From Gammaproteobacteria bacterium (GTDB lineage: Bacteria > Pseudomonadota > Gammaproteobacteria > Thiotrichales > Thiotrichaceae), in NCBI GenBank assembly GCA_018822845.1, contig JAHJJD010000006.1:1-64000 (forward strand): 64,000 bases of DNA. The letters run 5' to 3'. Made by a program: the position numbers and the translations under genes. The notes under the pieces are model-generated. The model was not told where the DNA came from. It saw only the letters and a program-made list of their open reading frames with translations, and did not search any database. Below, piece by piece: positions 1-47,876 of this stretch. Within the stretch, counting starts at the first letter, position 1. Every line of letters starts with the position of its first letter.

Positions 1-177
1 CACTGCCCGTCTGGCAGGATTCCGGATAGTCCGGTAACGGTTATAGGCGATTCGGGCGGTGTTGAAGGACTGAACAACGGCAGACTCCGGGCGGGCGGGT
101 TACGCTTGAGGTGGCTGTTTGCCTGGAAAAAAACCGTTGGACGGATCAGGCAGTCTGGACGGCGTAAGCGGGATTAG
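1..177 (+). other. Edge segment with one stop-free frame, no assignable gene
   Basis: Frame 1 on the plus strand is open from the window edge to a TAG at 175-177. It encodes an Arg/Gly-rich tail of 58 residues with no recognisable motif and no internal ATG. It would converge on the WD40 gene with no gap. It could be the 3' end of a gene lying outside the window or chance openness in GC-rich DNA. I see no promoter, RNA gene or repeat here. Confidence 0.2.
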
Positions 178-1538
178 CTGGTAACTATATCCCATAACCT
201 CAATACATCATCGTCTGAAGCCGTAGCTAATTTTGTGTCCTCATCAACCGCTATCGCACTTAAAGGGTGAGTATGCATTTGCAAAATCTGTTTCAGTTCT
301 CCAGAAACCACATCCCACAACTTCACCTTATCGCTATAGTCGGAACTTGAAGCAAGCTGACCATCCCTACCAAAGGAGACTGATATTCCCCTATGAAGTC
401 CACCCTCATGTGCTTGCAAGATTTGTTTCAACTCTCCGGTGTCTACATCCCATAATTTCACGATGCCATTAAATGAGCCAGTAGCCATCTGACCATTTCT
501 ATCAAATGCTACGGACACTCTCCCCAAGGGACTTCCTTCATGTGCTTGGAAGGTTCGTTTTACTTTACCCGAGCCTACATCCCACAGTTCTACTACACCA
601 CCAAATGAACCGGTAGTCATCTGGCCATTTTCATCAAATGCGACTGACACTGGGCCAAACATTGAAAGACTTTCTTGTAGAGTTTGTTTTAATTTACCCG
701 TTTGTACATCCCATAGTTTTACCACACCGTCATTCGAACCTGAAGCCAATCGACCACTACTATCAAACGCCAGTGACCAGACACCGCTTTGTACATCCAA
801 GGTTTGTTTCAATTTGCCCGTTTGAACATCCCACAGTTTTACCGTACCGTCATCCGCACCTGAAGCCAATTGACCACTACTATCAAACGCCACTGAAAAA
901 ACTCGATCTTGCATTTGCCACGTCTGTTTTAATTTGCCCGTTTGAACATCCCACAGTTTTACCGTACCGTCATCCGCACCTGAAGCCAATTGACCGCTAC
1001 TGTCAAACGCCACTGAATTCACGCCGCTTTTAGTTTGTAGGGTCTGCTTCAGTTCGCCTGTCTGCACATCCCACAATTTTACCGTACCATCATCCGCACC
1101 CGAGGCCAGTTGACTGCCCCCATCAAACGCCACCGAATGTACACCGGAGTCCATATCGCTATTAACTTGTAAGGTTTGCTTCAGCAGGTCATCCACACTG
1201 CTATAGCCAAGTTCCTTGAGAGTGGTCTGGTAGGCCGGAGCAACGGGGATGCGTAGCAAAGGGGAATCAATAATGGATTTTGGATTTTTCTGTTGCTGTT
1301 GGTTTGGGTCAATGGGTGGGCTTGAGGTGTCGTCAGAGGCAAATAGAGGGAGAGTGAAAAACAGGGTGAGGATGAGAAGAAATCCCTCCCACCCCCCCCT
1401 TATCAGGGGGGGAGCGGAATGCACTCCGAATAGCTTACGGAGGCCCAGCAAAACTCCCTTCCCTGATAAGGGGAGGGGTGGGGAGGGGTTTCCTTCCCCA
1501 CCCTTTGCAAAAGGGGGGCTAGGGGGGATTTTCTTCAT
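174..1538 (-). CDS. WD40 beta-propeller protein with repeat-interrupted signal peptide
   Basis: The 454-residue protein is mostly eight WD40-type repeats of about 40 residues, each with a core like SVAFD..GQLASG and ending in LWDV or LWDI, so it should fold as a beta-propeller for protein binding. The start chosen is ATG at 1538, because its A overlaps the TGA stop of the upstream TIR gene (TGATG) and implies translational coupling. After Met-Lys-Lys comes about 47 residues of proline/glycine-rich sequence encoded by a short repeat element, then a hydrophobic stretch ending PLFASDD that looks like a signal-peptide core and cleavage site. The original signal peptide therefore seems split by the element, so it may now act as an uncleaved anchor or fail. 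Blades 2 and 3 are nearly identical in DNA, a sign of recent duplication. The partner protein is unknown; the neighbouring TIR protein is the obvious candidate. Confidence 0.85.
   Translation of the reverse strand: MKKIPPSPPFAKGGEGNPSPPLPLSGKGVLLGLRKLFGVHSAPPLIRGGWEGFLLILTLFFTLPLFASDDTSSPPIDPNQQQQKNPKSIIDSPLLRIPVAPAYQTTLKELGYSSVDDLLKQTLQVNSDMDSGVHSVAFDGGSQLASGADDGTVKLWDVQTGELKQTLQTKSGVNSVAFDSSGQLASGADDGTVKLWDVQTGKLKQTWQMQDRVFSVAFDSSGQLASGADDGTVKLWDVQTGKLKQTLDVQSGVWSLAFDSSGRLASGSNDGVVKLWDVQTGKLKQTLQESLSMFGPVSVAFDENGQMTTGSFGGVVELWDVGSGKVKRTFQAHEGSPLGRVSVAFDRNGQMATGSFNGIVKLWDVDTGELKQILQAHEGGLHRGISVSFGRDGQLASSSDYSDKVKLWDVVSGELKQILQMHTHPLSAIAVDEDTKLATASDDDVLRLWDIVTS
811..1017. repeat. Recently duplicated 120-bp WD40 blade unit
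   Basis: The 87 bases at 811-897 and at 931-1017 differ at only two positions and are offset by exactly 120 bp (40 codons). The neighbouring blades are clearly more diverged. This shows recent duplication or gene conversion of blades within the WD40 gene. Confidence 0.85.
1382..1531. repeat. GC-rich short repeat element inside WD40 signal peptide
   Basis: The segment contains imperfect inverted copies of CCCTTATCAGGGGGG and CCCTTTGCAAAAGGGGGG type sequence. Related pieces occur at 46846-46942 and 54570-54643. It lies between the ATG-Lys-Lys codons and the hydrophobic-core codons of the WD40 gene and keeps the frame open, so it is read as protein. Confidence 0.75.
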
Positions 1539-2962
1539 CACGCCATCCCCCCACACCCCAGCGCCACCCGCCCCGTCCGCCGGATCAGCTCACAGCGCCA
1601 CACCAGTTGCCGTTTGCGTGGCTCCACCTCGCGCACGGTCAGCAGGTTGCTCCAGTACAGGCCACGCACCACGGGATCAATCAGCCACGGCGAATAGCGC
1701 CCCAGTTGTTCCTTTTCCAGCAGCTCGCAGATGTATTCGCACTTGCTGCTGTCACTCAGGAACACGCTGAACAGTTGCACGATGTAGGGCGACACTTCCA
1801 GCGTATCCTCGCATTCCTGCGGATCAGGGATGCCCTCTTCCAGACAATGCTGGATCAGGCGCGGATGCTGCCCGGTCAGCGCCAGCAGGTGCTGCAACGC
1901 CTCCGCATCCAGCGGCAGGTCGTCAAATTCGCTGGCCAGCGTGTGTTGCAGGTCGGCCAGCCCCATTTCCGGCAGGCGGATTTCCTGCGCGTGATTGAGC
2001 AGCGACATGTCGCCGCGTGCGTAGCGCAATTCCGCCAGTTGCTCGCCGCCCACCATCACCAGCCGCAACTGGCGGCGGTATTGCTCGGTCAGCGAACGCA
2101 GCACCTTGGCCATGCGGTAGCGGTATTCCGGGTGGGCGTTTTCAAAGCGCGTCACCAGCAGGAAAAACTGCCCTCGCTGCTGGATCGCCTCCTCCAGCGC
2201 CCGGTTGAAATCCAGGCTGTTATGGCATTCCGGCAAGCCGCAACGGCGCGACACATAGGCGTAATATTCCGCTTCGTCGGCCTGCTCCACCGCTGGCATC
2301 GACAACTGGAACACCGCCGCTGCACCGTAGGTTTCTTCCGCACAGGCAAGAATCTGTTCGCACAGCAAGCCGGTATCACGCCCTGCCTGTGCCAGCACCA
2401 GCAACGGCTTGTTGCGAGCCAGTGCCTTGAAAATCTGGCTGGTAATGTCTTCGGTCTGGGTAACGGTTTCCACCCTGACCCGGTGCAGATCGGCGGGGAT
2501 TTCCAGCGCCCCCGTAAACCTGCCAGCCCCCGGCGGCTGGCCATTGAGCGCTGCGTGCAATTCGTGGAAAGCCCGCCGGTAGCCGCTTTCACTGCTGTCA
2601 CGGAAATCGACGGCAAGGATGCTTTTCAGGAACGGCAGCTCCGGCATTTCCCCAAATATCACTGGCAACAGGCAGAAACCCGGCTCGTGACGCGACCGCT
2701 CACGGAACAGGGCGTATTCATCCTTCACCCAGCCGGAATCCACCGCATCCGGCGTGCCGATCAGGATGGCGTTGTGGGCAGTACGTGCCGCCTGATGGAG
2801 CTGGTTGGCCAAGTCCTGCCCACGTACCAGCGACCATTGATCCAGAAACACCGAATAGCCTTGCGCCAACAGGTTACGCGCCAGCACTTCCACCCATTTG
2901 AAATGGCTGCTACGGTAACTGATAAAAATGTCTGGGGATTGGGGTGTATTTTGCATCAGCAT
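1538..2962 (-). CDS. TIR domain protein with degenerate NTPase-like module
   Basis: The N-terminal TIR domain (about residues 10-135) begins DIFISYRSS and has the SGWVKDEYAL segment whose Glu82 matches the catalytic glutamate of TIR NADases. The middle resembles a STAND/AAA fold, but its expected P-loop (about 184-197, AQAGRDTGLL) lacks the Lys-Ser/Thr of Walker A, and the Walker B-like strand (about 265-276) reads LLVTRFENA. It may therefore bind a partner rather than hydrolyse ATP. The last 60 residues look like a winged-helix segment. I chose ATG 2962 because the TIR fold starts within ten residues; an in-frame start at 3019 is possible. The stop overlaps the WD40 start (TGATG). TIR proteins paired with sensor propellers are typical of bacterial immune or cell-death modules; that role here is inference. 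Confidence 0.85.
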   Translation of the reverse strand: MLMQNTPQSPDIFISYRSSHFKWVEVLARNLLAQGYSVFLDQWSLVRGQDLANQLHQAARTAHNAILIGTPDAVDSGWVKDEYALFRERSRHEPGFCLLPVIFGEMPELPFLKSILAVDFRDSSESGYRRAFHELHAALNGQPPGAGRFTGALEIPADLHRVRVETVTQTEDITSQIFKALARNKPLLVLAQAGRDTGLLCEQILACAEETYGAAAVFQLSMPAVEQADEAEYYAYVSRRCGLPECHNSLDFNRALEEAIQQRGQFFLLVTRFENAHPEYRYRMAKVLRSLTEQYRRQLRLVMVGGEQLAELRYARGDMSLLNHAQEIRLPEMGLADLQHTLASEFDDLPLDAEALQHLLALTGQHPRLIQHCLEEGIPDPQECEDTLEVSPYIVQLFSVFLSDSSKCEYICELLEKEQLGRYSPWLIDPVVRGLYWSNLLTVREVEPRKRQLVWRCELIRRTGRVALGCGGMA

Positions 2963-3068
2963 CGCGACCGTTCTTGACTCACTCAGGAGTATACCGCATA
3001 AACCACATGGATTAAGCAAAAATGGAAATCACCCGATACAATCCAGCGGCAAAATACACAGGCACAGC

Positions 3069-3443
3069 ATGAAAACACTATTTTCCCTGATCGAATCCCC
3101 CGCGCACCCCAACTTCAGCGCCCTCTACCAGCAGCTTGGCATCCGGGAGGAACGCTTCAGCGCTGCCCGCAAGCTGCACAAGGCGTTGCAGCAACAGCAA
3201 CCGGATTTCCTGGTGGGGGAATTTATCTACGGCTACGGCAACAATTACGCCGGGGCGAACGTGTGCAATCTGGATGTGACCTTACGCGCCTTGCAACGCT
3301 TCGCACCGAATACCAAAATCATCGTGTTTTGCAGCAAGGACGAAATGCAGCACATCGACAAATTGGCGGCTCTGTTTTCGTTACATGCAGTGATAACATT
3401 GCCCGCCAACGTACAAGCCATGAAAACTGCACTGGAATCATAG
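3069..3443 (+). CDS. Conserved-looking small protein of unknown function
   Basis: The 124-residue soluble protein shows no signal peptide or membrane segment. It reads as an alpha/beta protein with a hydrophobic strand KIIVFCS near residue 90 and a tyrosine/glycine-rich loop YGYGNNY around residues 57-63. The start at 3069 was preferred over longer options because the upstream codons overlap the 5' end of the divergent TIR gene. I do not recognise the family. It is followed by a short palindromic repeat rather than by a gene. Confidence 0.6.
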   Translation: MKTLFSLIESPAHPNFSALYQQLGIREERFSAARKLHKALQQQQPDFLVGEFIYGYGNNYAGANVCNLDVTLRALQRFAPNTKIIVFCSKDEMQHIDKLAALFSLHAVITLPANVQAMKTALES

Positions 3444-3562: not shown

Positions 3563-4297
3563 CTAATAACCTAAATCCCCTTCCAAATCAGCAATCAGCG
3601 CCGTTATAGTCTCACCCAGCGCCTGATTCATCGCCTCAACGATCTTGCCAGTCCGCACCGGCACATTTTCCTTGCGAATATCATAACGATGCTGCCCCAT
3701 CACGCGCTGATCCTGCACCCGCACGAGAATGGATTCCATCCCCAGCACCACGGCTACACTGCCTTTGCCCTGCGGCGGATATTCGGCCTGAAATGCCGAC
3801 ACCCGCAGCAACAGCTTGTAATTTCCCCCATTCCCCAGCAACTGGTCGGAAACCGACTGGAAAGCGCCACTGCGCGACAAGGCATCCAGCATAACCGCAT
3901 GCAAATAGCCGGAAAGGTCATCCGGCCAGCGGCTGTTGGCAATGAAATCCTGCTGGAACTGCTCCTTGACCAAGGTAATACGCGATGTATCCAGCGCCGG
4001 GGAAACTTCCACCCTGGGCAAATACAGATTCGCATTCGATTTGCCTGGAGCCGTGTTAACCTGTGGAACCAGCCGGTAAACCTGATCAGCAGGCAGGTCG
4101 CTTTTCAGCGGGGAGGAACAAGCTACTAATAGCGATAGCAGTAAAATGAAAACACCTGACTTCGCACCTCCCCCCCATCCCCAGCCCTTCCCCCGCAAGG
4201 GGGGCAGGGAGCAAGAAGGAAGAAGGGAGCGCCTCTTGTTCCCTCCCCCCTTGCGGGGGAGGGTTAGGGTGGGGGGTAAAACACTCATTATCTTCAT
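3563..4297 (-). CDS. ABC-type transport auxiliary lipoprotein (PqiC/MlaB-associated family)
   Basis: The 244-residue protein is the last gene of the Mla-like operon and matches outer-membrane auxiliary lipoproteins that accompany MCE transporters. A lipobox LLVACSS places the lipidated Cys near residue 60, far too deep for a normal signal peptide. The cause is a repeat-derived Pro/Gly/Arg-rich segment (about residues 8-47) between MKIMS and the hydrophobic core GVFILLLSLLVAC. The mature part shows the family pattern YRLVP...LYLPRVEVSPALDTSRI. Its start ATG overlaps the mlaD stop (ATGA). Whether the elongated leader is still processed is an open point. Confidence 0.8.
   Translation of the reverse strand: MKIMSVLPPTLTLPRKGGGNKRRSLLPSCSLPPLRGKGWGWGGGAKSGVFILLLSLLVACSSPLKSDLPADQVYRLVPQVNTAPGKSNANLYLPRVEVSPALDTSRITLVKEQFQQDFIANSRWPDDLSGYLHAVMLDALSRSGAFQSVSDQLLGNGGNYKLLLRVSAFQAEYPPQGKGSVAVVLGMESILVRVQDQRVMGQHRYDIRKENVPVRTGKIVEAMNQALGETITALIADLEGDLGY
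4168..4278. repeat. GC-rich short repeat inside lipoprotein signal peptide
   Basis: The two arms CCTTCCCCCGCAAGGGGG and CCCCCTTGCGGGGGAGGG are inverted copies flanking a purine-rich loop. The whole element is translated within the leader of the auxiliary lipoprotein gene, between its start and its hydrophobic core. Confidence 0.75.
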
Positions 4298-5989: not shown

Positions 5990-7111
5990 CTAAAACCCCA
6001 ACCGGTAGAACAACACAGAAAACAACGCATCCAGCAGCAGCACCAGAAAGATGGAATCCACCACCGCCTGCGTGGTGTGCTTGCCCAGACTTTCGGAGGA
6101 ACCGCTGACGCGCATTCCCTGCCAACAGCCGATCAGGGCAATGACCACGGCAAAGAATGGAGCCTTGATGATTCCGGCGGCGAAGGTGCGGAACTCGATA
6201 GTGGTTTCCACCCGTGTGTAAAACTGCACAAAGGAAATGTCCAGAATGGTGGAAGAAATCAGCGCCGCTGCCGCCAGTGCAATGATGTCGGCCAGGATAG
6301 TGAGCAATGGCAAGGCTATCACCAGCGCCACCAGACGCGGCACGACCAGAATCAGGAACGGGTCGCTGCCCATCACCCGCAGCGCATCCACTTCCTGATT
6401 GGTTTTCATCAGGCCGATTTCGGCAGCGAAAGCACTACCGGAACGCCCTGCCACCATGATCGCGGTCAGCAGCACACCCAATTCGCGCAGCACCGAAATC
6501 ACCACCATGTCCACCGTGTAGATTTCCGCCCCCAGATCGCGCAACTGCCCACCACCCTGATAGGTGATGACGATGCTGATCAGGCAGGCAATCAGGCCAA
6601 CAATGGGAATGGCACTGACGCCAGTGGTGAAAACATGGTGCAGCACGGAACGCACCCGGAACAAATGTGGTGATAGCAGGCTGGCAAACAAAGCTTCCAG
6701 ACTGTGGCCGAAAAACGTAATCAAGGAACGCCACAAATGCAGCAGGTGGAAAACCTTTCTCCCCAGCAAATGCAGCGGGTCGGTTACACCCGCAAGAGCC
6801 TGCTGGCGGATGCCGGGTGCTGGCGGCTCGCCATTTGCTGCCCGCTCGAAATAGCCGAGGTATTCTTGCGGAAAATGCAGGAAACTGACCTCCCGGCCTT
6901 GTTGCTTCCACAACTGCGCCTGCCGGTAGACCAGCCATGCTGCGGTGACATCCAGATGGGAAACGGCCTCCACCTGAATGGCAACATGTTTAACAACGGG
7001 GGTAATAGCAGCCAGCGCAGCGCGGATTTCTTCCGTCTGATCAAACGTCCAGTCACCTTGCAAGTTGAGGTGAAGGGTGTCGTCCTGCTGTTGTTGCTCC
7101 AGATTAATCAT
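5990..7111 (-). CDS. mlaE: MlaE-type permease with fused N-terminal STAS domain
   Basis: The first roughly 100 residues form a STAS-like domain (core SHLDVTAAWLV near residues 49-59), equivalent to the separate E. coli MlaB. The remaining roughly 260 residues are the MlaE permease with several membrane helices and motifs such as VISVLRELGVLLTAIMVAGR and SGSAFAAEIG. At 373 residues it is the expected length of the fused form. It is the first gene of the operon, divergent from a DUF2157 gene 69 bp away, so the promoter must lie in that gap. Confidence 0.92.
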   Translation of the reverse strand: MINLEQQQQDDTLHLNLQGDWTFDQTEEIRAALAAITPVVKHVAIQVEAVSHLDVTAAWLVYRQAQLWKQQGREVSFLHFPQEYLGYFERAANGEPPAPGIRQQALAGVTDPLHLLGRKVFHLLHLWRSLITFFGHSLEALFASLLSPHLFRVRSVLHHVFTTGVSAIPIVGLIACLISIVITYQGGGQLRDLGAEIYTVDMVVISVLRELGVLLTAIMVAGRSGSAFAAEIGLMKTNQEVDALRVMGSDPFLILVVPRLVALVIALPLLTILADIIALAAAALISSTILDISFVQFYTRVETTIEFRTFAAGIIKAPFFAVVIALIGCWQGMRVSGSSESLGKHTTQAVVDSIFLVLLLDALFSVLFYRLGF

Positions 7112-7180
7112 TGGCTACCTGTACAATGCGAACAGTGCTAAGGTATTTGTACAAAAGCACAATAGCAATGGAAATGTCGT

Positions 7181-8380
7181 ATGGGAATGACCCAGAAAAA
7201 ACTCGAACGCTGGCAGCAAGCCGGGCTACTCACCCCCGGTCAGATTGAGGCAATCCTTGCGTTCGAGAATCAACACCCGCAGCGAGCCAACTGGTGGCTG
7301 TACAGCTTCATGATCCTTGGCACGGCCATCATCGGCCTTGGAGTAATTTCCCTGATTGCTGCTAACTGGGCAAATATTCCCGACGGCGTGAAGCTAGGAG
7401 CTGATTTCCTGCTGCTAGCCGTATTGGCGGGGGGAATTTACCAGCAGTATCCAAACCAGCAACACGGCATCTGGTTTGAAGTGCTGGTGGTTGGTTTCAT
7501 GCTCCTGTGTCTGGCCAGCATCGGGCTGATTTCGCAGATATTTCATGTTGGTGGGCAGTGGTATCACGCCCTGCTGTTCTGGGCAGCGATTACCTTCCTG
7601 TTAAGCTTGTTCGCCCGCAACGGGTTTACCCGGTTTTTCTGGGTGACGCTATTTTTGCCGGGAGCATTGTGGAGCATCGTGAGCGGCATGGGTTGGCATT
7701 TCCAGCATACGCTGGATGAGTTTCCTGCCGTCATCCTGCTGGCACCCTTGTTCGCCGCCGTGTTGTATTCCACCTGTATCCAGGTCAAATGGCTACGCGG
7801 TTTCAGCCCCAGCCTGTTTTTCTGGTTCCAGATCAGCGCCATCATGGCACTGGCGTTTGCGGACATTGCGCGTTCCGGCGGGGAAATGATGGATTATCAG
7901 GTGGTCTGGTATTTCCCTGCTTATATTGCTGCGGGCGTTCTCGCCGTGGGTATCGTGCTGCACAAGGATTACAAGTGGTTGAACAAGCTGTTGCTGCTGG
8001 CCGCACTGGTCTTGCTGCTGCTGTATTATCACCCCGACTGGCTGTTTAGCGGGGAACAGCGTTATACCCTGTTCGGCAGCCGCGACCATGCAGCGGTCAG
8101 TTTTTGGCGGGCGGATGACATCCGCGCCCCGCTGTTGACCTTGCTGATCCTGTTCCTGTATGCCATCCATGCCGGGAATGTGGGGCATCAACGCACCTTC
8201 AACCTGATCACGTTCCTGATCGGGCTGCGTTTCGTGATCCTGTATTTTCAGGCGATGGGCGGGCTGGCGGCGACAGGCATCGGGCTGATCATTTCCGGCA
8301 GCCTGATCATTGGTATTGCCTGGTTGTGGTACAAGGGGCGCGACCGTCTGCGCGCATGGACGAAGGAATTGAAGGCATGA
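7181..8380 (+). CDS. DUF2157 multipass membrane protein
   Basis: The 399-residue protein starts with a soluble helical DUF2157-type segment (QKKLERWQQAGLLTPGQIEA), followed by about ten hydrophobic segments. This is the family's standard layout. The molecular role of DUF2157 proteins is not established. Its stop overlaps the start of the next gene by four bases (ATGA), and the two genes are commonly paired, suggesting a joint membrane function. Confidence 0.85.
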   Translation: MGMTQKKLERWQQAGLLTPGQIEAILAFENQHPQRANWWLYSFMILGTAIIGLGVISLIAANWANIPDGVKLGADFLLLAVLAGGIYQQYPNQQHGIWFEVLVVGFMLLCLASIGLISQIFHVGGQWYHALLFWAAITFLLSLFARNGFTRFFWVTLFLPGALWSIVSGMGWHFQHTLDEFPAVILLAPLFAAVLYSTCIQVKWLRGFSPSLFFWFQISAIMALAFADIARSGGEMMDYQVVWYFPAYIAAGVLAVGIVLHKDYKWLNKLLLLAALVLLLLYYHPDWLFSGEQRYTLFGSRDHAAVSFWRADDIRAPLLTLLILFLYAIHAGNVGHQRTFNLITFLIGLRFVILYFQAMGGLAATGIGLIISGSLIIGIAWLWYKGRDRLRAWTKELKA

Positions 8381-46808: not shown

Positions 46809-47876
46809 TCATAATTTTTCGGCAATAGGCGTGGCGATCAGGGAAACACCCCTTGCCGCCCCCTTTTCAAAGGAAGCAACTGCCCCCGTCAGGCACTCTT
46901 GCATCCCCCTTTGCAAAAGGGGGATTGAGGGGGATTTTCTCCCCTCTTCCCAATAAGCTTTTTGCACGCTGATCATGGCGCACAACCACCTGGGCAACTG
47001 CTGGTAACGCTTGCCCAGCCGGAATGCCAGCAACTTGACCAGGGTCTGCAAAGCCGCCAGCGGCAGCAGCAACTTGCGGCGCTGTGCCAGATAGCGGATC
47101 AGGGAACGCACATAGACCCATGCTTCGCGATCTGGCATGCCTACTGCCTGCATCAATGGCTGTTCGGAGGCGTGGAATACCCCCACGTCAAAGTAGCGCC
47201 GGAATACCTGCAACAGGGAATACTGATGGGAATGTTCCACCGTGCTTTCCGCCGCATACACCGCTTTCCAGTTGGCCAGCAACAACCGCGCTGCCACGTA
47301 GCTGTCTTCGCTGACAATAATGTGTTGCGGGAAACCGCCGATGCTGCGCAGCGCCCGCGCCCGGTACACCGCATATACGTCGGATGAAAACGCCGCCCGG
47401 TAGCCCATGCTGCGGAAACTGTTGCGGTCACGGATGGATGCTTCCGGCGGGTAGGTGAAACTGCGCGCATGGCATTCCAGCAAGTCAGCGCCCGGACGCG
47501 GCAAGTGCCTGCCGTAGGCCAGCCCGACCTGCGGATCGTGGTCGAACCTGGCAAGGATGCTGGCCAGCGAATCCGCCTGTTTAAGCAGCGCATCCTGGGT
47601 GAGGTAAACCAGCAATTCGGCATCAGGGCACAATTCCGCCGCCAGTTGCCGGGTTCCACCATGGCTGAAATCGCGCGGGTCGATGCTCTGCACTTCCATG
47701 CCTGCCGCCCTGGCCAGTTCTGCGGTATGGTCTTCGGAAGCGGAGTCGATCACCAGATAGCGCCCTGCTTCCACCGTCTGGTTCTGGATGGCACTGATCC
47801 ATTCCGGCCACAAACGCCCGGCATTGCGGGTCAGGACAATGACCGCCACATCCGGGCGGCTGATTTTATTCTTCAT
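46809..47876 (-). CDS. GT2 glycosyltransferase with repeat-derived C-terminus
   Basis: The 355-residue enzyme begins MKNKISRPDVAVIVLTRNAG and has YLVIDSASEDHTAEL and LVYLTQDALL (metal-site variant TQD), as in rhamnosyltransferase-type GT2 proteins, with a conserved DFSHGGTRQLA block. About the last 45 residues (from GRKSPSIPLLQRG) are encoded by a GC-rich short repeat, so the native C-terminus was probably altered. ATG 47876 has GGG upstream; an ATG at 47882 is possible. It is the last gene of the O-antigen operon. Confidence 0.85.
   Translation of the reverse strand: MKNKISRPDVAVIVLTRNAGRLWPEWISAIQNQTVEAGRYLVIDSASEDHTAELARAAGMEVQSIDPRDFSHGGTRQLAAELCPDAELLVYLTQDALLKQADSLASILARFDHDPQVGLAYGRHLPRPGADLLECHARSFTYPPEASIRDRNSFRSMGYRAAFSSDVYAVYRARALRSIGGFPQHIIVSEDSYVAARLLLANWKAVYAAESTVEHSHQYSLLQVFRRYFDVGVFHASEQPLMQAVGMPDREAWVYVRSLIRYLAQRRKLLLPLAALQTLVKLLAFRLGKRYQQLPRWLCAMISVQKAYWEEGRKSPSIPLLQRGMQECLTGAVASFEKGAARGVSLIATPIAEKL
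46846..46942. repeat. GC-rich short repeat at the 3' end of a glycosyltransferase gene
   Basis: CCCCTTGCCGCCCCCTTTTC and CCCCCTTTGCAAAAGGGGGA, followed by TTGAGGGGGA, are members of the family at 1382-1531. The element is translated as the C-terminal tail of the glycosyltransferase. Confidence 0.75.

Follow-up and report, generated by a model that had tools for sequence, protein, structure and literature searches.

The window (positions 1-64,000, beginning at base 1 of the 106-kb contig C64 in a Thiotrichaceae assembly of 4.0 Mb and 130 contigs) opens with a gene for a TIR protein and a WD40 gene, both on the reverse strand. Adaptor and receptor genes of these two kinds form a real, conserved two-gene module, in which known parts stand in a new arrangement: a STAND switch is placed across the membrane, and a dead relative of it serves as effector carrier. 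One protein (the receptor, protein B) begins with a signal peptide or a hydrophobic stretch at its N-terminus and continues with an outer sensor, which varies, a single transmembrane (TM) segment and a STAND NTPase on the cytosolic side that has both Walker motifs, A and B. The other (the adaptor, protein A) carries a variable head (TIR, CHAT, CHAT plus TIR, helix-turn-helix (HTH)-like, or TM) on a Walker-dead relative of the receptor STAND domain. We consider it probable that the two act together as a transmembrane STAND switch, by which an envelope signal leads to NAD+ cleavage, proteolysis or another output. In the window genome, an insertion sequence (IS) has evidently cut the receptor gene inside its propeller, and therefore the module is presumably off there.

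The complete architecture may be read from locus L036, in a Thiotrichaceae metagenome-assembled genome, where an ortholog of the window TIR gene (74-75% identity) is followed by a receptor of 1,526 amino acids. This protein starts with an N-terminal hydrophobic segment, followed by 14 WD motifs with a spacing of about 40 residues, then by an Ig-like region, a single strong hydrophobic segment (residues 953-971), and a predicted cytosolic region with AAA_22 and nSTAND1 matches and the Walker A sequence GGRQLGKS. The Pfam family nSTAND1 scores above cutoff in L036 (E 1.6e-7) and L041 and below cutoff in L039, where the Ig-like region shows matches to CARDB and NPCBM_assoc, also below cutoff. The same plan is present in L039 and, with gaps, in L037 (ectodomain mostly N), L040 (frame divided into two that overlap, NTPase incomplete), L042 (in G005; unknown bases and frame shifts, possibly sequencing error), and the window together with contig C99 of its own genome. 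The G and K of Walker A and the D-E of Walker B are invariant in all eight aligned receptors, and the motif GxxxxGK[ST] is found at 39 of 39 receptor loci vs. 0 of 25 adaptor loci, with all adaptor frames considered. Walker A, Walker B and STAND relatives thus mark the receptor as a STAND NTPase, the window copy being split by the IS. By hydropathy, it also displays an export segment, an ectodomain, one TM segment and basic residues on the cytosolic side, as expected for a transmembrane receptor. Peaks of hydropathy at the N-terminus and further on are seen at 16 of the 39 receptor loci; among the remaining ones, many are cut by contig ends or devoid of an ectodomain, and the N-terminal peak is below threshold in L129, L131 and L137. 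The WD40 sensor most likely faces the periplasm, forming the outer domain of a membrane-spanning STAND NTPase. A structure model of the L036 receptor built from one sequence was too poor to use (mean predicted local distance difference test, pLDDT, 38.8), none of the solved structures proved a convincing relative when compared with the receptor and adaptor profiles (best E 0.24 and 0.63, respectively), and the search of the receptor against plasmids gave one weak partial match (Euzebya, 28.8%).

The adaptor of the window is an intact frame with a strong TIR_2 match (E 1.2e-23), and an earlier note on this DNA was right in assigning it a catalytic-type Glu82, which lies in GWVKDE, a position we take to be that of the catalytic Glu in SARM1-type TIRs (WVxxE). 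SARM1 is also the best match of this TIR in the PDB, where the alignments shown end at residue 77, before Glu82. With a TIR fold and a Glu at WVxxE, the protein is a candidate NADase of the SARM1 type. The Glu is retained in most but not all aligned TIRs, Lys replacing it in L128 and Gln in L135, both distant relatives. At the P-loop position the protein reads AQAGRDTG, which bears out the loss of the Lys seen by the earlier note. A winged-helix-like tail, also suggested there, could not be established: there is no Pfam match in that part, and an AlphaFold model from two sequences (mean pLDDT 50.0) was too poor for a fold search. A further Pfam match is to AAA_35 at residues 292-403, weak and below cutoff. 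Profiles of the receptor STAND and the pseudo-STAND domain align collinearly (hhalign E 9.8e-5, probability 58), and the two are therefore probably related by descent.

Linkage of the two genes was counted in the neighbourhoods of 30 receptor matches, a part of all those obtained, of which the 21 with at least 4.5 kb upstream were evaluable. An adaptor stands beside the receptor in 14 of these 21 receptor-search loci (13 upstream, 1 downstream), always on the same strand; with earlier loci added, the count is 21 of 28, every adaptor being on the receptor's strand. Profiles A2-A5 were built from loci first found by a TIR or adaptor query, and those loci are ascertained for linkage; some receptor matches in the genome samples are short or weak. 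Among 63 genomes of the window's family, the adaptor profile matches 7 and the receptor profile 10, namely the same 7 and G013, G418 and G031, with short, partial matches (that of G031 cut by a contig end). This amounts to 7 genomes with both, none with the adaptor only, 3 with the receptor only and 53 with neither (Fisher p 2e-7). Among 42 genomes of the order of G318, 25 have a receptor match (two of them weak, E about 1e-11) and 20 an adaptor match, with 18 genomes having both, 2 the adaptor only, 7 the receptor only and 15 neither (Fisher p 1.5e-4; both tests ignore shared ancestry). A class sample of 369 genomes holds 4 adaptors and 3 receptors, all three receptor genomes having an adaptor as well and all three having been used in profile building, and a phylum sample of 398 genomes holds 8 receptors, including the window's own genome and G400. 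The adaptor searches left out the whole genomes G518 and G541. The linkage that the earlier note had proposed for the two genes is thus conserved in relatives, on one strand, with co-occurrence both in the family and in the order; the same two observations led us to reject the idea of chance neighbours. As a separate observation, two large genomes (G831 and G833, 8.5-8.8 Mb) each match the receptor and adaptor profiles 6-8 times, an expansion.

In the window, the WD40 gene is an open reading frame (ORF) of 460 amino acids (1556..174, reverse strand) with 7 Pfam WD40 stretches, starting either with GTG at 1556 or with ATG at 1538, and the TGATG overlap with the TIR gene described earlier is present at 1540-1536. 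It is a truncated receptor gene rather than a complete one, because its stop codon lies in an IS, the IS is bordered by an 8-bp duplication, and the frame continues on contig C99. With 98-100% identity, the genome has 6 further copies of window bases 1-180, whole or for the most part incomplete, 5 of them at contig ends; bases 1-139 of C99, which represent the opposite end of such an IS, recur at 5 other places. The C-terminal half of the L036 receptor has a single match in the window's genome (65% identity), near the start of C99. If C64 and C99 are joined at one copy of ATAGTTAC, the frame stays open for 1,532 codons and reads LWDIVTGELEQIL across the junction, leaving the WD40 repeat unbroken. 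Independent support for the adjacency of both contigs comes from G013, a genome of the same genus, where both flanks survive and the central part of the system has been deleted: locus L043 aligns to window 2901-3367 (81%) and 2857-2899 (86%), and the latter match is abutted by C99 3140-3366 (89%) and then by C99 4142-6767 (85%, GcpE and DLH genes). About 35 TIR codons and 76 receptor codons are left, and a 1.3-kb insertion separates the two TIR pieces. The scar itself (L043 6866-8905, at the gcpE locus) joins early TIR codons to the last receptor codons.

This bears on the earlier idea of a sensor split off from the TIR protein and possibly exported. TIR and WD40 do reside on different chains, and the propeller is strongly supported by Pfam and most likely periplasmic; its soluble form, however, is a product of IS truncation, with the rest of the gene on C99. 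That the window codes for a functional soluble pair, with the WD40 protein exported and the TIR protein in the cytosol, appears hardly credible to us and was rejected: both reading frames are open, and 8 WD motifs and a signal-peptide-like segment remain in the fragment, but the stop codon lies within the IS, the gene continues in frame behind an 8-bp duplication, and the intact L036 receptor is more than a propeller. The first reading went wrong at this one point because the IS truncates the receptor in a draft genome, and in such a genome an IS can make a receptor pass for a free secreted sensor.

Heads and sensors differ between loci. Among 26 adaptors read, which are part of all adaptor matches, 11 have a TIR head (L039 also CHAT), 1 has CHAT only (L041), 13 have a segment that we read as HTH-like, and 1 has TM segments only (L142). 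The His and Cys motifs of CHAT (HFSGHG, NACYS) are present in L039 and L041. Seven of the 13 HTH-like heads were scanned with Pfam, which gave sub-cutoff HTH matches in L064, L122 and L127 and no HTH match in L061, L062, L136 and L138. On the receptor side, a WD40 sensor (at least 3 motifs) is found in 21 of 39 loci, an NHL propeller in L136, L137 and L144, and in L061, L122 and L123 a small sensor domain, about 130 residues long (L061 and L122 were scanned, with a sub-cutoff pilin match in L061 only); L127, L132 and L141 have only a TM segment ahead of the STAND part. Because heads and sensors vary in this way, we regard the two STAND parts as a constant core with variable input and output.

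Some loci depart from the two-gene layout. In L126, from another class, a CHAT-NACHT-TPR gene stands upstream of the receptor instead of an adaptor, and in L125 the gene upstream is split in two frames, the second with NACHT and TPR matches. Both loci, again from another class than the window, show cyclase, NACHT-TPR (with CHAT in L126) and WD40-TM-STAND genes in a row (L125 550-8284, L126 3107-10778), the cyclase being identified by Pfam (Guanylate_cyc) in L125 and by eye in L126; a different effector replaces the pseudo-STAND protein in these rows. A third gene on the opposite strand lies between adaptor and receptor in L127 (4884-6038), L132 (4473-5963) and L141 (4663-5805; all on the reverse strand); it is coiled-coil-like by eye, with no Pfam family above cutoff, and the receptors at these three loci are those lacking an ectodomain. 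In L142, a YhcG/DUF1016 PDDEXK nuclease gene (6426-7496, reverse strand) occupies that position.

The WD40 repeats within one receptor may be very similar at the DNA level (median 85% and up to 97% in L040, up to 95% in L039) or not (median 50% in L140). In fungal NWD genes, the d-a loop and the b-c turn of each repeat hold two pairs of codons under positive selection, four in all, each pair flanking a conserved residue (PMC1805685). The matching positions here are x-V-x and GS-x-D-x, which are top-face sites. In four arrays, the mean proportion of nonsynonymous differences (pN) is 0.38-0.58 at these sites vs. 0.07-0.18 elsewhere (permutation p 0.0001-0.008 each, random sites being a lenient null since WD40 consensus sites are constrained), and the window/C99 array shows an excess with p 0.04, from only 3 usable units, a number shared by L135. 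The mean pN of the four sites exceeds that of the rest in 5 of 5 arrays, the sites having been named after the first scan. Against diversification, the fourth site is invariant in the three 40-residue arrays; further, pN is well above its synonymous counterpart (pS) only in L040 (0.53 vs. 0.17), pS being 0.43-0.53 elsewhere. The site diversity supports variable ligand binding and falls short of proving immunity.

Based on this dataset, we hypothesize the following course of events. An envelope ligand would bind the top face of the propeller, the signal would pass the membrane via the TM segment, and the receptor STAND domain would bind ATP and oligomerise. The pseudo-STAND domain of protein A would then be drawn into the receptor oligomer via its related domain, so that the heads become clustered; clustered TIR heads might cleave NAD+ and CHAT heads cut proteins, leaving the cell killed or arrested, and other heads would have other outputs. 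Every step from ligand to killing, as well as the immune role, is something we infer from sequence.

The receptor would be an activator in this scheme. A pair of the toxin-antitoxin kind, in which the receptor keeps the TIR or CHAT protein inactive and its loss sets the effector free, would be in keeping with the overlapping, closely coupled genes. Effector frames, however, are open beside broken receptors, in the window and in L041, where a CHAT-pseudoSTAND frame adjoins a receptor without ectodomain and TM segment, which argues for an activator rather than an antitoxin; adaptors also occur without a receptor match in G067 and G843. The antitoxin model appears very improbable, and was rejected on account of the open effector frames. 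Broken copies in one family, by IS (window), deletion (G013), truncation (L041) and a split frame (L040), fit a costly, conditionally useful system, assembly or sequencing error being possible for some.

Going further, we tentatively propose an outward-facing, diversifying non-self recognition system of filamentous bacteria, in which a periplasmic WD40 sensor, diversified at its top face in the manner of fungal incompatibility genes, would engage, via the transmembrane STAND protein, pseudo-STAND proteins armed with a TIR or CHAT killer. An agent that is foreign or does damage would thus be sensed before entry into the cytosol, and the cell would die or stop growing. This is possible, yet we hold it to be doubtful. 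Several points weigh against it, or against the adaptor-receptor scheme in general. No adaptor is present in the stretch read at 7 of the 21 evaluable loci (L125, L126, L129, L133, L143, L149, L150; on the contig of L143, an adaptor match lies further up, beyond that stretch), 2 of the 20 adaptor-bearing genomes in the order of G318 lack a receptor match, and the co-occurrence tests take no account of shared ancestry. Diverse hotspot sites are described as general in highly repetitive WD40 proteins (Hu et al., 2017, PMC5587647). The catalytic Glu is absent from 2 of 10 TIRs, and with half of the adaptors read (13 of 26) carrying HTH-like heads without TIR or CHAT, the core may be a general switch. 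Finally, the genes around the copies do not look like a defence island. Pfam was run on 23 flanking proteins around the window, C99, L036, L039, L040, L041 and L064, a part of all neighbours, and housekeeping or transport functions prevail among the genes next to several copies: AIRS/HypD/HypF, an aconitase-family gene, TruB, an exonuclease, a DEAD helicase, an SRP54-type GTPase, GcpE, MlaD/MlaE, ABC genes, a histidine kinase and a sigma-54 response regulator. The proximity to defence islands considered in the earlier note was therefore not borne out, none of the flanking genes checked being a known defence gene. PADLOC gave partial, generic TIR/CHAT/NTPase matches for 4 proteins and matched no known defence system, and the matches of NCBIfam were likewise partial and generic.

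Much of this would suit a general envelope-to-cytosol signalling switch, whose core senses the envelope state and whose heads are mostly regulatory, TIR and CHAT acting in signalling without being lethal: the HTH-like heads (3 of the 7 scanned with weak sub-cutoff matches), the two TIRs without Glu and the housekeeping flanks all point that way. The other 4 scanned heads without any Pfam HTH match, the catalytic motifs kept by the TIR and CHAT heads of the window's own family, the diversified repeat sites, and the patchy presence with broken copies point the other way, and we judge such a switch somewhat unlikely. A different objection arises from Kaur et al. (2021, PMC8195603), who propose that inactive STAND domains serve as nucleic-acid sensors, unlike the adaptor role assigned here. 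The pseudo-STAND domain would then itself detect the invader, and the membrane protein would only tune or anchor it. This appears highly unlikely here, as the ectodomain of the partner is elaborate and variable and most likely lies beyond the membrane, away from cytosolic nucleic acid.

Coordinates of the module in the window and on contig C99 of the same genome (G000)
Feature	Position	Strand	Basis or remark
TIR-pseudoSTAND effector/adaptor gene	1538..2962	-	ORF, 474 aa, frame intact
TIR domain, residues 12-129	2576..2929	-	Pfam TIR_2
Glu82 codon, putative catalytic Glu in GWVKDE	2717..2719	-	kept in 8/10 aligned TIRs
Putative pseudo-STAND (inactive NTPase) adaptor region without Walker A	1541..2488	-	alignments A3/A5; profile comparison with receptor STAND
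Receptor gene, 5' part: signal-peptide-like segment and 8 WD motifs, IS-interrupted	181..1556	-	ORF, Pfam, hydropathy
Receptor gene, 3' part	C99 140-3370 (L045)		same genome
Predicted signal peptide hydrophobic core GWEGFLLILTLFFTLPLFA	1338..1394	-	Kyte-Doolittle 1.69 over 19 residues
End of multicopy IS, gives stop codon 174-176 to the truncated ORF	1..180		genome matches
8-bp target-site duplication ATAGTTAC (gene strand)	window 181-188; C99 140-147		borders the IS on both sides
G/C-rich repeat element, inverted self-matches (1376-1414 with 1454-1496)	1376..1496		in frame before the signal-peptide core; blastn

The G/C-rich element listed last consists of inverted repeats that read as PPSPPFAKGG and similar, in frame ahead of the signal-peptide core. 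A blastn comparison of window 1371-1540 with the window and 9 loci gave matches in L037, L038, L039, L042, L043 and at window 46907-46940. L038 has such a repeat at the same place, L037, L039 and L042 have one in frame within the receptor linker, and a lipoprotein ORF (3563-4297) shows, by eye, a similar in-frame repeat before its signal-peptide core. These elements are insertions that leave frames unbroken.

The best-studied bacterial STAND or NLR-like proteins (Avs and relatives) sense in the cytosol. If the proposed scheme is true, the module would amount to a bacterial equivalent of immune receptors at the cell surface, with interchangeable TIR and CHAT heads on a dead STAND relative, and in it a diversifying sensor of the fungal type would be joined to bacterial NADases and caspase-like proteases. 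No description of a transmembrane STAND receptor paired with a TIR or CHAT pseudo-STAND protein was found in titles and abstract openings of the open-access papers searched, which does not prove its absence from print. Single-chain bacterial STAND proteins, which carry TIR, NTPase and WD40 in one polypeptide, are built of the same effector, NTPase switch and propeller modules; here, in contrast, there are two chains and two STAND copies (one of them dead), with the propeller across the membrane.

The nearest described relatives, with other partners, appear to be the iSTAND conflict systems (PMC7159879, PMC8195603). In the MoxR-vWA ternary systems, an inactive STAND domain may be headed by a TIR or caspase-like domain (Kaur et al., 2020, PMC7159879), and the adaptors described here share the lost NTPase motif (GxxxxGK[ST] lacking at 25 of 25 adaptor loci) together with TIR and CHAT heads. 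iSTAND systems are enriched in multicellular bacteria, some being membrane-proximal, with one cited case in a Thiotrichaceae bacterium. Their partners are a MoxR ATPase and a vWA protein, whereas the partner here is a transmembrane STAND receptor; because MoxR and vWA occur in 0 of the 23 flanking proteins scanned by Pfam, the module is set apart from the ternary systems.

Fungal HET-D, HET-E and HET-R (NWD/HNWD) resemble the receptor in that their WD40 repeats are homogenised and have diversified sites that flank a conserved residue in the d-a loop and b-c turn (PMC1805685, PMC2873952). They are single-chain, intracellular NACHT-WD proteins, whereas the propeller here would lie outside, with the effector head carried by a separate protein. 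Thiohalocapsa PB-PSB1, a multicellular gammaproteobacterium, likewise has STAND conflict systems, with TIR and CHAT domains at some loci and one STAND target predicted to be periplasmic; its sensor is a C-type lectin varied by a retroelement (DGR), in contrast to the propellers with like repeats found here (PMC10907252). Toll-like receptors with MyD88 combine an outside sensor, one TM helix and a cytosolic TIR assembly. The likeness to them is one of analogy only, homology not being claimed: here, it is the partner that carries the TIR domain, and clustering would fall to an ATPase.

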